DNA from: Thermoplasmata archaeon
GTDB lineage: Archaea > Thermoplasmatota > Thermoplasmata > Thermoplasmatales > GCA-001856825
Direction: 5' to 3'
Assembly: GCA_021797855.1 (NCBI GenBank)
Contig: JAJZYX010000001.1
Coordinates: 62,001-126,000, forward strand
Length of the DNA stretch: 64,000 nucleotides
Of this stretch, positions 29,966 to 37,498 are shown in pieces (within the stretch, counting starts at the first letter, position 1; every line of letters begins with the position of its first letter). The notes under the pieces are model-generated. The model did not search any database, was not told the origin of the DNA, and was given only the letters and a program-made list of their open reading frames with translations. The position numbers and the translations under genes were made by a program.

Positions 29966-31585
29966 TTACGAAGGAACGGAAGTGGACCGATCAAAGCGGC
30001 CAGGTATTCCTTTGAAGGATGTAAGGGCAAGCCAGTATATGCTCTTAAGCACTCCAAGAACGCTATTTAGTTCTATATTGCTGAATTCATAAGATTTCCT
30101 TCCCCTTGTCTCCATCAGTTCCAAGAATACATTCTCTATGTTGGAGAATGTCAGGCTCATCACTGTGTTAACGATCGCTTTCGTGATCTTGCTGCTCATG
30201 CGCTTTGTCATTTGCGGCAGTATCTCCATCGTCAGTTCCAGGTCCTTTTTCCAGCTGACATAAAGAAGTTCCCAGTATTTGGTTGGCAGTCTCTCAAGTT
30301 CAGGAAAAGGATTTCTGCTTATCTTTGTGGATGTAATAGGGATAACCGGCAGCGGGAATACCCATGCTTTCCCACCGGAATCAAAAAGTTGTTTCACCAA
30401 ATCAATACTCTGCTGTACATCCTCATCGGTTTCGTCTGGGAAACCTATAGTCATGGTATAGGCGGGTGTAATGTAGGCATCGTTGAGAATCCTTGTAGAT
30501 TCTATGATGACATTCCCCCAATCCTCTGGTTTGTACGGGAATGGTTTACCTCTCATATATTTCGAAATGATCCTTGTGCTTCCACTCTCAAGACCAACGA
30601 CTGGTGCCTCGCTTCTATACTTACGATACTCAGCAATGTCCGATATATCCATCACCGCCTCCGGACTTCTGAGTACCGCGGGCGATGATATATGGGGGAA
30701 GAATATCTGTTCAGCCCCCTCTTCTTTCACATTGCTGAAGAGCTTGACTACAGCCTCTCTGTTGGTTTCCAGCCTCTTAGACCCATAAAGCAATATGTCG
30801 TCTGTCAGTAACTCTATGTTCTTCTGCCCCGCATCCAGATTTATCCTCACTTCCTTTATAATGTCATCCATAGGTATCGTCCTGAAGGTTTCTGGAGTTA
30901 TTGAGCAGAATTGGCAACCTCTGGGACATCCACGAGTGACCTGAACTTCACCCAGCCTTGCGGGTTTCACTATGGTAGGGATTTCCTCAACCCTTGCATC
31001 CCTTCCAACAACCTCCCTTGGAATGTCTTTCCCAGAAAGTACCTGTCTCACGTAGTCAGGTAAATCAATCTCTGCTTCTCCGTTGTATATTGTGTCTACC
31101 CAGTCGGGCCTTTCCATAGCCAGTTGCCAGGTAGCTGGTCCTCCAGCGAAGACTTTGAATTCGTATCTTTTCCTAAGCCTTGCAATTTCCTTAGACAACT
31201 CCCTGAAAAATGTTGCGTTCCATGCGGGACCTCCCCCAAAGAGCATCGTCAGTTTGAACGAGACGGGACTGAGACCGTACGGATCATGGACCGTTATGCC
31301 AACCAGCTTTGTGTCCCGGTCTATCGCCCTACCAATGGCTTCCGGTGGAACCACAACTACATCCTTTATCCCCGCTCTGAGGAGGATTGCCTCAACCTTT
31401 CGCAGTGCGTAAGGCGCCACAAAGGCTTCCCCTTGTGATGTGTACTTAATCCGGGGAGTGAAGAGCGCATCCATCATAATCTTAGGGACAATCCTATGTG
31501 GCATGCATGCTACGTATCCCAGGGTAGAGACACCGCCATAGTCAGTAAAAGAGCCGCGGTCAGCGGTAAGTACCACTTCAGTCAT
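29966..31585 (-). CDS. B12-binding-type radical SAM protein (COG1032 class)
   Basis: A 539-aa cytoplasmic enzyme. The N-terminal about 200 residues resemble a cobalamin-binding Rossmann domain without the classical DxHxxG. The radical SAM cluster motif is TRGCPRGCQFCSITP (CxxxCxxC, about residues 218-232), followed by ELLTDDILLYGS and VVGLESGSTRIISKYMRG. Substrates of this group include lipids, tRNA and cofactors, and none can be named here. It is transcribed away from the MarR gene across 45 bases containing an 18-bp palindrome, so both are probably under the same repressor. Confidence 0.82.
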   Translation of the reverse strand: MTEVVLTADRGSFTDYGGVSTLGYVACMPHRIVPKIMMDALFTPRIKYTSQGEAFVAPYALRKVEAILLRAGIKDVVVVPPEAIGRAIDRDTKLVGITVHDPYGLSPVSFKLTMLFGGGPAWNATFFRELSKEIARLRKRYEFKVFAGGPATWQLAMERPDWVDTIYNGEAEIDLPDYVRQVLSGKDIPREVVGRDARVEEIPTIVKPARLGEVQVTRGCPRGCQFCSITPETFRTIPMDDIIKEVRINLDAGQKNIELLTDDILLYGSKRLETNREAVVKLFSNVKEEGAEQIFFPHISSPAVLRSPEAVMDISDIAEYRKYRSEAPVVGLESGSTRIISKYMRGKPFPYKPEDWGNVIIESTRILNDAYITPAYTMTIGFPDETDEDVQQSIDLVKQLFDSGGKAWVFPLPVIPITSTKISRNPFPELERLPTKYWELLYVSWKKDLELTMEILPQMTKRMSSKITKAIVNTVMSLTFSNIENVFLELMETRGRKSYEFSNIELNSVLGVLKSIYWLALTSFKGIPGRFDRSTSVPS

Positions 31586-31597
31586 TATATGGTTATA

Positions 31598-31615
31598 TTA
31601 TTTATACATAAATAA
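31598..31615. promoter_or_regulatory. 18-bp palindromic operator candidate over a bidirectional promoter
   Basis: TTATTTATACATAAATAA is a perfect inverted repeat, eight bases per arm around AC. Its centre is 21-22 bases from the radical SAM start (31585) and 24-25 bases from the MarR start (31631). It therefore coincides with the TATA position for leaderless transcripts in both directions. MarR dimers bind such palindromes, so repression of both genes by this MarR is the natural reading. This is inference from position and symmetry. Confidence 0.7.
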
Positions 31616-31630
31616 TCATGTACACAAAGC

Positions 31631-32089
31631 ATGAGAAATATAACTAAACAGAGTTTTGGCGAGGCAGATCACGAAACTGTAGAAGCAATAAGAAACACCT
31701 ACAGGGCCATGGACAGGAAGATAACTGCCCTCCTAGCTGTAAATGACTTGACAAGACCTCAGTTTATGGCCCTCAAGGCAGTTTCCGAAGGCGGAGCAGT
31801 TCCGATGAACAAGATCAGCGACTGCCTCTCTGTAACTCCTGGAAACGTAACAGGAATCATCGACAGACTTGTCAGAGGGGGGATGTTGAAGAGAAGTGGG
31901 AAAGAAGGGGACAGAAGGAAGATAATGATAGGAATGACGAAGAAGGGTGAAGACACCTACAGGAGAGTCCTTTCTGCTTACTCTGAATTCCTGGGTAAAG
32001 TGTTGAGTCAACTGAGCCAGACAGAACGTGAAGAATTGAAGGAACACTTGACCAAACTGGAGGAGGCTATAGAGAGTGTCAAGATTTAG
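31631..32089 (+). CDS. MarR-family transcriptional regulator
   Basis: A 152-aa winged-helix dimeric repressor. The DNA-binding core is LTRPQFMALKAVSEGGAVPMNKISDCLSVTPGNVTGIIDRLVRGGMLKRSGKEGDRRKIMIGMTKKG, with the typical DRR wing, flanked by dimerisation helices. It diverges from one radical SAM gene and is followed after 27 bases by a second one, so it likely regulates both and itself. The inducing ligand is unknown. Confidence 0.9.
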   Translation: MRNITKQSFGEADHETVEAIRNTYRAMDRKITALLAVNDLTRPQFMALKAVSEGGAVPMNKISDCLSVTPGNVTGIIDRLVRGGMLKRSGKEGDRRKIMIGMTKKGEDTYRRVLSAYSEFLGKVLSQLSQTEREELKEHLTKLEEAIESVKI

Positions 32090-32116
32090 CTGCCAATTTC
32101 AGGGAGAGGCTGGCAA

Positions 32117-33718
32117 ATGAGAGCGGTTCTTATTAGACCAAGCAACAAGACTGGAAGCGCTTACCTCCAAAAATGGGGGTTCCTCCCGACCCCACTCGGT
32201 CTTCTTATTATGGCTGGTGAACTGCTCAGAATAGAAGGCACCTCAGTAAAGATAATAGATATGGAAGCGGAGAATATAACGCTCGAGGAGACTGTAGACA
32301 GGGTTCTCCATTTCCAGCCTGACCTTGTAGGAATCACCCTTCATGCCACGGCAGCACACAATAATGCAGGCACAATAGCAAGAATGGTCAAGGAAGAAAA
32401 GCCCGACACAGTCCTTGTGGCTGGGGGGCATCACGCCACATTCCTTCCAAAGGAGATTATTTCCTCTGGATTTGATATAAGCGTCCTAGGGGAAGGGGAC
32501 GAGACTATCTATGAAATAGGGAAAGTTATCTCGGAGGGAGGCAGATTGGAGGATATCAAAGGGATAGTCTTCAGGAATGGAGACAGGATCATTAGAACGG
32601 CCCCCCGACCCCTGATACAGGACCTCGACAGCCTCCCTCTCCCTCCAATGGACCTGATTGAGCCGGACAAATATATCTTCAGAGTGTTCAGTGAGAAATC
32701 CAAGGTGATGTGTATAGAAACTTCCAGGGGGTGTCCGTATGCTTGCGACTTCTGCTCGGTGACTCCAACCTGGGGCAACAGATGGAGAAACAAGTCGAAC
32801 GAAAGGATACTCGCGGAGATGGGACTCGCTAAAAAATTCGGATATGACTGGATTTTCTTCACAGACGATATATTTGTCGTATATCCTAATGTGAAGCACA
32901 GGGAACAACTGTTCAATCAGATAATTTCCCGTGAATTAAATATGAAATGGATTGTTCAGATGAGAGCTGATGTAACTAGCAGGAATCATGACCTGATAAA
33001 ACTGGCTGCAAAGGCAGGAATGCAGGTGGCCTTCCTGGGTGTTGAATCTGGTAGTGAAGAAGTCCTGAAGAAAATGCACAAGGGGGAATTCACATCACAA
33101 TCCGTGGATGCAGTCAGAACCCTCACAGAAAATGGCGTAATTGTCATAGTGGGAATGATGATAGGGGCCCCATATGAACGCCTATCCGATTTAATATCGT
33201 CCATAAGGTTTTCTAGAGCCCTGTCAAGGGCAGGGGCAGATGCCATACAGTTTTCCCTGTATACACCGCTCCCTGGCACCCGGGTGTTCGACGATGCAGT
33301 AAGGGAGAATAAACTGTTCACCCTGGATTGGGACAGATATGACATACTTACACCCGTAATGAAGACAAGGATGAATCCGGTCCTTGATCAATTAGCACAG
33401 TTCTACGGGAATTACAGCTTCTACATCTACAAGTTTGTGAGGAATAAACTGCTCGGAATCAAGGCTGTAGGTGAAGAAAAAACAAAGCTACTAAACAATT
33501 CTATGAAGTTTATTTTAAGCATGATACCTGAACATACCAAGAACATTATGACATTTCCAAAATTCCTTATAGAAACATGGAACCTATACGCAAACGGGAA
33601 GACAATGGCACCTGAAGATGTTACGAGAACTGCTGAGATAGCGGAGACTTCAGGGAAGATAATATATGACCTTGGACAAAGCAAGAACCCTTATTTCATG
33701 ATCAAACAGGAGAGGTGA
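32117..33718 (+). CDS. B12-binding domain radical SAM enzyme (BchE/GrsA-like class)
   Basis: 533 aa. The N-terminal cobalamin-type domain has PTPLGLLIMAGELLRIEG and VLVAGGHHATFLPKEII followed by VLGEGDETIYEIGKVI. The radical SAM motif is TSRGCPYACDFCSVTP (about residues 203-218), then FFTDDIFVVYPN and GVESGSEEVLKKMHKG. This architecture is shared by BchE, hopanoid methylases and archaeal GDGT ring synthases. With a membrane VTT/DedA protein immediately downstream, lipid modification is a reasonable guess but is not shown by the sequence. The gene is co-directional with the MarR gene and seven bases from the next gene. Confidence 0.83.
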   Translation: MRAVLIRPSNKTGSAYLQKWGFLPTPLGLLIMAGELLRIEGTSVKIIDMEAENITLEETVDRVLHFQPDLVGITLHATAAHNNAGTIARMVKEEKPDTVLVAGGHHATFLPKEIISSGFDISVLGEGDETIYEIGKVISEGGRLEDIKGIVFRNGDRIIRTAPRPLIQDLDSLPLPPMDLIEPDKYIFRVFSEKSKVMCIETSRGCPYACDFCSVTPTWGNRWRNKSNERILAEMGLAKKFGYDWIFFTDDIFVVYPNVKHREQLFNQIISRELNMKWIVQMRADVTSRNHDLIKLAAKAGMQVAFLGVESGSEEVLKKMHKGEFTSQSVDAVRTLTENGVIVIVGMMIGAPYERLSDLISSIRFSRALSRAGADAIQFSLYTPLPGTRVFDDAVRENKLFTLDWDRYDILTPVMKTRMNPVLDQLAQFYGNYSFYIYKFVRNKLLGIKAVGEEKTKLLNNSMKFILSMIPEHTKNIMTFPKFLIETWNLYANGKTMAPEDVTRTAEIAETSGKIIYDLGQSKNPYFMIKQER

Positions 33719-33724
33719 ACCTAT

Positions 33725-34522
33725 ATGAGGAATGACTTTGAGGGCGCAGCAAAGAAACTGGTAACGTTGATGGAATCTCAATTGGAAGCAAAAAAACGTG
33801 TGAACTCAAACAAGACAATGAGCAAGTACTGGCACTATACCTTCGTAGGTTCCATTGGGTTCATGGCGCTTTCATCAATGGGAATCATCAACGGATATCT
33901 AAGATTCATAAATCTCCATTCCTATTATCAGAGTAGCATAACGGTCCCTTACCAGAACCTACTCGGTGGTTATGTTGGAATCTTCATTCTGCGCCTTCTT
34001 CCTATTCCTGACTTCATAACTCTGCCTCTGATCGGATACCTAAGTTCCGCCGGATTGTTCAATCCATTCATTGCCTTCATTGCAGCCTTAGGCGGTGCCG
34101 TGGTGCCATTTGAATATTTTGCGGGTAGGCTTGCCGCCAGACCAATACTAATGAGATCGCTCAGGGTGCTGAGAATCAGCGAAGAGAAGTTAGAAATTGC
34201 AGAAGGCTGGATACTCAAACACGGTCCATTCTCAGTTTTCGCCTCCACCTTTGTTCCATATTTCTACTCCGCTGTCGCTCTCGCAGCTGGAACACTTAGA
34301 ATGAAAATCGTACCGTACTTCGTAGCTACTATTGCAGGATTTGGGATAAGGTATGCTATTCTTGAGGCAGCAGGATTTTACGGGGCGTATATACTCACTC
34401 CAGAATACGATAACTCACACAGGACGGAACTGTTGGCACTCCTGACGATCTCAATATTCCTAAGCGCTTGGTACGGAGTTGAGAATCTTAAGTTGAGGAG
34501 AACGTCAGCTACTACTCAGTGA
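33725..34522 (+). CDS. VTT/DedA-family membrane protein
   Basis: 265 aa, with an N-terminal cytoplasmic segment of about 35 residues and about six hydrophobic spans. The core GGYVGIFILRLLPIPDFITLPLIGYLSS and FIAALGGAVVPFEYFAGRLAARP followed by HGPFSVFASTFVPYFYSAVALAAGTLRM resembles the SNARE-associated/VTT (DedA) family, thought to scramble or transport lipids. It follows the radical SAM gene by seven bases, so it belongs to the MarR-controlled operon. The partner substrate is unknown. Confidence 0.78.
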   Translation: MRNDFEGAAKKLVTLMESQLEAKKRVNSNKTMSKYWHYTFVGSIGFMALSSMGIINGYLRFINLHSYYQSSITVPYQNLLGGYVGIFILRLLPIPDFITLPLIGYLSSAGLFNPFIAFIAALGGAVVPFEYFAGRLAARPILMRSLRVLRISEEKLEIAEGWILKHGPFSVFASTFVPYFYSAVALAAGTLRMKIVPYFVATIAGFGIRYAILEAAGFYGAYILTPEYDNSHRTELLALLTISIFLSAWYGVENLKLRRTSATTQ

Positions 34523-34648: not shown

Positions 34649-35050
34649 CTAAATATTCCTTTGATCACAGGTAGAGTGAGCCACAATGCTCACCTTGGTT
34701 GGGCTGATCCCTTTCTTCTTCAATTCATTAAGAAGCCATGATACGTCCATATCTATATCTATAACTCTGTTTTTGTCAACACAGAACACGTTTACGTGGG
34801 ATTCGGTTCTTGATTCAAACCACCTCATCCCACTGACTTCAAAAGATGAAAGAATTTCATTTCTCTCTAGAGTGTCCAAGGTGCTATATACAGTTGAAAG
34901 GCTGATACTAGGCATTTTCTTCTTCAGCTCATTATAGATTTGCTCTCCAGTAAAGTGACCACCGTTTTTCATGATGTTTAATATAGCGACTCTCTGAGGA
35001 GTAACCTTGATCCTCTTATCCCTCAACTGCTGTATTGAATCGATTCTCAT
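34649..35050 (-). CDS. Fur/PerR-family metal- or peroxide-responsive regulator
   Basis: 133 aa. Winged helix: KVTPQRVAILNIMKNGGHFTGEQIYNELKKKMPSISLSTVYSTLDTLERNEIL, with the Fur-type STVYSTLD recognition helix. The C-terminal dimerisation part has ESHVNVFCVDKNRVIDID. The regulatory His of GGHFTGEQIY and the His/Asp of the hinge remain, but the structural zinc CxxC of canonical Fur/PerR (CxxCGKI) is replaced by CVDKNRVI. It diverges from katG by 163 AT-rich bases, the classical arrangement for a peroxide regulator. Convergent with the VTT gene, and the 126 bases between them hold nothing assignable. Confidence 0.87.
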   Translation of the reverse strand: MRIDSIQQLRDKRIKVTPQRVAILNIMKNGGHFTGEQIYNELKKKMPSISLSTVYSTLDTLERNEILSSFEVSGMRWFESRTESHVNVFCVDKNRVIDIDMDVSWLLNELKKKGISPTKVSIVAHSTCDQRNI

Positions 35051-35213: not shown

Positions 35214-37361
<2,148 letters not shown>

Positions 37362-37424
37362 CCCATTTATTGGGAGAGTTAGGGGCAATGAGGCAGATTT
37401 GATTGTCTCCTCTGGTTGGGAGAG

Positions 37425-37498
37425 GGCCGGGACCGGGATTTGAACCCGGGTCCGGGGATCCACAGTCCCCAAGGATGCACCGCTACCCCATCCCGGCC
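37425..37498 (-). tRNA. tRNA-His (anticodon GUG)
   Basis: On the minus strand the acceptor GCCGGGA pairs with TCCCGGC. A further 5' G pairs with the C at position 73, the G-1:C73 identity pair of tRNA-His. The anticodon stem GGGGA/TCCCC encloses CTGTGGA, giving anticodon GTG. The T-arm is CCGGG-TTCAAAT-CCCGG. CCA is not encoded. A TATA-like TAAATATTTTAG at 37522-37533 lies 24-35 bases upstream. Confidence 0.95.

Follow-up and report, generated by a model that had tools for sequence, protein, structure and literature searches.

A candidate MarR-switched membrane-lipid locus with a GrsB-clade radical SAM enzyme in a Thermoplasmata archaeon

In a 64-kb stretch of the genome of an acidophilic Thermoplasmata archaeon (hereafter the window), a gene for a MarR-family regulator lies between two radical SAM genes, one divergent (rSAM1) and one downstream (rSAM2), and a gene for a VTT/DedA-like membrane protein follows. 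A sequence-only reading had proposed an inducible membrane-lipid modification module with two B12-type enzymes. What does each enzyme resemble, and does the regulator belong with them?

The four genes are real and have the positions and orientations first proposed (Table 1). Homologues of all four occur in other genomes at 50-83% identity, which argues against chance open reading frames (ORFs). The radical SAM genes on either side of MarR belong to different families. The spacers measure 45 bases between rSAM1 and MarR, 27 between MarR and rSAM2, and 6 between rSAM2 and VTT, the last previously counted as seven. Pfam detects a Radical_SAM domain in both enzymes and a B12-binding domain in rSAM2 only. 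The MarR domain scores clearly above its cut-off and the VTT domain narrowly so (36.3 bits, cut-off 33.9). The Shine-Dalgarno-like element GGGAGAGG ahead of rSAM2 suggests that this is probably an internal operon gene. We read the whole, with moderate confidence, as an accessory membrane-lipid locus switched by MarR.

Table 1. Features of the locus and of the island that carries it (positions within the window).
Feature	Positions	Strand	Details
rSAM1	29966-31585	-	539 aa, ORF + Pfam; GrsB-clade GDGT ring synthase homologue
Divergent promoter region common to rSAM1 and MarR	31586-31630		45 bp
Perfect 9-2-9 palindrome ATTATTTAT-AC-ATAAATAAT	31597-31616		Proposed MarR operator
Motif TTTATACATNNATNATCAT	31601-31619	+	Kept upstream of 4/4 MarR orthologues
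MarR-family regulator	31631-32089	+	152 aa, ORF + Pfam
Shine-Dalgarno-like GGGAGAGG before rSAM2	32102-32109	+	Read from sequence
rSAM2	32117-33718	+	533 aa; B12-binding radical SAM protein, separate family
Shine-Dalgarno-like GGAGAGGTGA before VTT	33709-33718	+	Overlaps rSAM2 stop; read from sequence
VTT/DedA-like membrane protein	33725-34522	+	265 aa, ORF + Pfam; divergent subfamily
Fur/PerR-family regulator	34649-35050	-	Island member; ORF + Pfam
Catalase-peroxidase KatG	35214-37361	+	Last island gene; ORF + Pfam
tRNA-His	37424-37497	-	Island edge

rSAM1 and the distribution of GrsA and GrsB

Sulfolobales genomes were reached with the Sac7d protein sequence as query. A 505-aa radical SAM gene in Sulfolobus acidocaldarius (locus L170) is taken to be GrsA, Saci_1585: when the genes are numbered onward from it, an Lrp protein falls at 1588 and PyrE at 1597, in agreement with the locus tags of those two genes. 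We infer that L169:9278-10864 is GrsB, Saci_0240, from its position (about 200 kb) and since no full-length Grs homologue besides these two turned up; its identity to GrsA is 33%.

End to end, rSAM1 is 54% identical to this GrsB candidate and 31% identical to GrsA. Across GrsB-type proteins its full-length identity is 54-56%, with the same cysteine pattern. A maximum-likelihood tree places rSAM1 within the GrsB clade (19 GrsB-type rows, support 97/99), with GrsA and its Thermoplasmatales orthologues in another clade alongside a third group (100/96). A topology that unites rSAM1 with GrsA is rejected (AU p=7e-8). By its sequence, rSAM1 is a homologue of the GDGT ring synthases of the GrsB clade, nested in a lipid-modifying clade rather than among tRNA- or cofactor-modifying families.

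The radical SAM cysteines of rSAM1 form a CX3CX2C triad (C220/C224/C227), the single [4Fe-4S] triad in the sequence, and C27 is the sole further cysteine. Its AlphaFold model (pLDDT 88) has long C-terminal helices at 436-460 and 466-492, with mild hydrophobicity at 470-488 and 504-522. A single [4Fe-4S] site has been described for Grs enzymes, and long C-terminal helices, a possible membrane anchor, for GrsA (PMC11186832). The earlier label of B12-type for both enzymes holds for rSAM2 through its Pfam domain. For rSAM1 it is less direct: the N-terminal domain has no Pfam B12 match, though the model is similar to radical SAM enzymes of cobalamin or related type (MgmA, MiaB, AprD4) and can be aligned throughout with MgmA, a cobalamin enzyme. 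Sequence comparison of rSAM1 and rSAM2 with solved structures gave no match named Tes, in a set whose content of Tes is unconfirmed.

Further Grs-family genes were seen in passing. A second GrsB-clade paralogue, 46-49% identical to rSAM1 and forming its own clade, is present in several Sulfolobaceae (L177, L181, L185 and further genomes). The window's own genome carries on contig C11 (L188:1-3699) a tandem array of at least three more family members: two genes of 559 and 564 aa and a partial one at the edge of the contig. The 564-aa gene forms a long, isolated branch.

GrsB introduces C-3 rings into GDGTs after GrsA, and the two genes usually occur together in Sulfolobaceae. In Sulfolobales grsB rather than grsA is the gene under transcriptional regulation, and in Sulfolobus GrsB is reported to act after GrsA and to be the one regulated by pH and temperature (PMC10465181). 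Thermoplasmatales differ. Thirteen genomes, from families f3, f4 and f5, have GrsA orthologues (49-55% identical to that of S. acidocaldarius), and nine have GrsB orthologues, namely seven f6 genomes, the window's host (G000) and its relative G007; no Thermoplasmatales genome here has both. A search of families f1 and f6 found no GrsA orthologue, the host genome being 52% complete, and nearly all genomes of these two families have in its stead a homologue from the third clade, about 560 aa long. rSAM1 resembles the GrsB of S. acidocaldarius in clade, identity, single triad and C-terminal helices, and likewise as an accessory gene. It differs from the GrsB there in that its f1 family, and the Thermoplasmataceae, are without a GrsA orthologue, and in that it sits on a tRNA-linked island. 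One nearly complete f6 genome holds a degraded remnant similar to the C-terminus of rSAM1 (G037:C14:123182-123436, seven stops), consistent with GrsB loss.

Could rSAM1 belong to the GrsB clade by descent and yet perform other lipid chemistry in Thermoplasmatales? The separation of GrsA and GrsB orthologues throughout the order, unlike their pairing in Sulfolobaceae, would fit such a shift. However, rSAM1 keeps the full-length similarity, cysteine pattern and C-terminal helices of the clade, and ringed GDGTs are made by Thermoplasma and Ferroplasma, which carry GrsB (PMC11349054), so that a change of chemistry seems quite improbable. The GDGTs of GrsB-bearing Thermoplasmatales are reported to hold between 0 and 4 rings (PMC11349054). 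GrsB-type ring formation by rSAM1 is likely, judging from these sequence features. The position of the ring or the substrate may nevertheless differ in Thermoplasmatales, because GrsB occurs there without a GrsA orthologue.

Genome G031, which we take to be a Cuniculiplasma, has no member of either the GrsA or the GrsB clade. Since Cuniculiplasma is also reported to make ringed GDGTs (PMC11349054), other enzymes can form rings, and the third clade or rSAM2 may do so as well. Ca. Scheffleriplasma hospitalis has 97% GDGT-0 (PMC8975820).

The second radical SAM enzyme and the VTT protein

rSAM2 belongs to a separate family, its rows lying outside the Grs family in the tree (100/100). Orthologues are found in Thermoplasmatales at 49-67% identity and in 10 of 31 Sulfolobaceae at 51-55%. 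The S. acidocaldarius orthologue, at 1.551 Mb, is 51% identical and shares the layout of B12-binding and radical SAM domains; it is probably Saci_1785, as the position fits, a protein that has served as outgroup to Grs (PMC8473941). Its neighbours there are unrelated, whereas rSAM2 follows MarR and precedes VTT. Identity with GrsA or GrsB is ruled out by the tree and by absence from ring-making Sulfolobales: Sulfolobales without an rSAM2 orthologue contain no full-length match to it. BchE, HpnR and HpnJ share its domain order, but its scores of 209, 163 and 134 bits fall far below the NCBIfam cut-offs of 481, 650 and 578. It is a member of none of these families.

The distribution of rSAM2 is uneven. 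In the genomes searched, the gene was found in acidophile groups that make GDGTs. Among 41 relatives, eight have both rSAM2 and GrsB, six rSAM2 only, one GrsB only and 26 neither (Fisher p=2e-4, a value that ignores kinship); within Sulfolobaceae the co-occurrence is not significant (p=0.14). The window's rSAM2 groups with those of G006, G031 and three f6 genomes (100/100). The copies of the congeners G002 and G009 belong to a different lineage, and joining them with it is rejected (p=7e-5). Broken copies exist in G007 (L081:6313-7918, a split gene with several stops) and as remnants in one Sulfolobaceae genome (G065:C1:1491613-1492388), which suggests that rSAM2 is dispensable and lost at times.

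These data allow a reading in which only rSAM1 is a lipid enzyme under MarR. rSAM2 would then act on a quinone, a cofactor or a secondary metabolite, MarR would sense a toxic hydrophobic compound, and rSAM2-VTT would be a detoxification operon. Such a division accords with the place of rSAM2 outside the Grs clade and with its presence without GrsB in G002, G006, G009, G014 and G031. Nor was a consistent partner, or a stable lipid-gene neighbour, found in other genomes, where it lies beside genes for a protein kinase/phosphatase, an ABC permease, an amino-acid permease or an oxidoreductase. Its AlphaFold model (pLDDT 83) resembles TsrM, AprD4, OxsB and CysS, but matches among cobalamin radical SAM enzymes say nothing of substrate. 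Its occurrence in GDGT-making acidophile groups speaks against detoxification, as does the joining of two rSAM2 gene lineages to the same MarR as GrsB, and we consider this reading unlikely. A lipid role for rSAM2 itself is evenly balanced.

The VTT protein has several hydrophobic segments and a C-terminal TPxxDxxHR-like motif of its own. The VTT domain carries the earlier description as a VTT/DedA-like membrane protein, with the qualification that the protein is divergent. It shares that domain with the UptA-type DedA/VTT lipid-phosphate translocases, yet scores 54 bits against UptA (cut-off 250), and neither arginine of the RFxPxxR stretch that the canonical DedA-like paralogue of this genome shows is present in it; it is thus neither UptA nor a canonical DedA. 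In most relatives it is unlinked to GrsB, as is rSAM2. Its neighbours there (M50 peptidase, M13 peptidase, aquaporin, MFS) revealed no common theme, and a lipid role can be suggested only tentatively.

MarR, its promoter and the island beside tRNA-His

The MarR protein combines its domain with a palindromic site at its own promoter. The palindrome ATTATTTAT-AC-ATAAATAAT is the only perfect 9-2-9 palindrome in the window, and a first-order simulation of the 45 bases yields such a palindrome in 0.5% of draws. Its centre lies about 22 and 25 bases from the start codons of rSAM1 and MarR, so that with leaderless transcripts, which are common in this group of archaea, it would overlap the TATA position expected for each gene. 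The motif TTTATACATNNATNATCAT occurs once per genome in all four genomes with this MarR (G000, G007, G002 and G009), always before MarR. It has no match in G006, which has rSAM2 without MarR, nor does the reversed control pattern match. Because the motif was derived from the four sites searched and includes a TATA box, its conservation is in part that of a promoter rather than an operator. No further operator site that would define a regulon was found in the searched genomes beyond the one before MarR, which makes MarR look like a local switch. Across the four proteins the recognition-helix region is well conserved.

MarR orthologues number four in 15 family genomes, including the window's own; the other three are 51-65% identical, and no further MarR in the order exceeds 34%. 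All four adjoin a GrsB gene, an rSAM2 gene or both, in the arrangements rSAM1-MarR-rSAM2-VTT (G000), rSAM1-MarR-VTT (G007, L068) and MarR-rSAM2 (G002, L086; G009, L082). The flanking genes of the three loci (G002, G009 and G000/G007) do not match one another, and MarR is joined to both of the rSAM2 lineages that the data keep apart. Conservation of the four genes as a unit in other Thermoplasmatales did not hold up: the full set is unique to this genome, so that the strict four-gene unit fails by the refuting condition of the earlier reading itself, though sub-sets recur and the association of MarR with these enzymes is recurrent. In the Thermoplasmataceae and Sulfolobaceae loci read, rSAM1 and rSAM2 are unlinked. 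At the Sulfolobales grsB loci read (L169, L173, L175, L176, L180, L183, L184), unlike at rSAM1, no divergent MarR lies immediately beside the gene. In G007, a 73-aa ORF (L068:6386-6607) stands in place of rSAM2 between MarR and VTT.

The genes rSAM1, MarR, rSAM2, VTT, Fur and KatG together form a six-gene island between a NUDIX gene and tRNA-His. The site is empty in G010, where NUDIX, tRNA-His and HAD are adjacent; a 901-aa gene occupies it in G004; and G007 has the island without rSAM2, its broken copy lying elsewhere. No exact repeat of tRNA-His of at least 14 bases was found elsewhere in the window, and the island is unremarkable in base composition. The divergent Fur/PerR and KatG genes travel on the same island; in G002 KatG lies beside acetyl-CoA synthetase with the rest absent (L234:4937-9468). 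Two contigs labelled Euryarchaeota archaeon CPBay (L105, L107) carry Sac7d-like Sulfolobus chromatin protein genes and are perhaps mislabelled or from mixed bins.

An island of this kind invites the view that genes have accreted at random in an integration hotspot and that MarR regulates only itself. The empty and differently occupied sites fit that view, as does the confinement of the full set to one genome. Chance accretion, however, would not lead one to expect that every MarR orthologue adjoins GrsB or rSAM2 at three loci with its motif kept, or that the 45-bp divergent promoter is common to rSAM1 and MarR in two species, and it is very improbable. MarR was first named as the likely regulator from its place between the radical SAM genes; its operator-like motif and its following of such enzymes from locus to locus strengthen that assignment. 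Control of both promoters by MarR is, on this comparative sequence evidence, very likely.

A proposed switch for membrane-lipid rings

In the favoured reading, a MarR dimer would bind the one palindrome over the TATA elements of two divergent promoters, repressing rSAM1 in one direction and, in the other, the transcript of its own gene with rSAM2 and VTT. An inducer would loosen MarR, whereupon rSAM1 would put cyclopentane rings into GDGT tails and give a tighter membrane. rSAM2 would add a second modification, for which an isoprenoid lipid is again the most likely substrate; VTT may help move a lipid or lipid carrier. The proposal of a membrane-lipid module is well supported for rSAM1, by its clade, and for MarR, by motif and linkage; for rSAM2 and VTT it is plausible but unproven. 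The arrangement recalls autoregulating MarR repressors such as MarR and OhrR, which are likewise winged-helix proteins with a palindrome in a divergent intergenic region; here the targets are instead lipid-type radical SAM enzymes. In the papers searched, none was found that joins MarR with GDGT ring synthases.

A bolder and rather unlikely extension is a mobile, MarR-switched lipid-remodelling cassette, in which the same repressor has become associated, on more than one occasion, with different cobalamin-type radical SAM lineages. A GrsB-type enzyme alone would form rings on demand without GrsA, and rSAM2 would be a further, undescribed GDGT-modifying enzyme.

The number of rings in GDGTs matters for acid tolerance and for palaeotemperature proxies. 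The mutually exclusive distribution of GrsA and GrsB in Thermoplasmatales makes it questionable whether GrsB acts after GrsA outside Sulfolobus as it does there. Because this MarR has a single clear operator-like site, placed at the promoter of a GrsB-clade gene, the regulation of grsB can be tested directly, and the locus supplies a first candidate for a switch dedicated to ring formation in membrane lipids.
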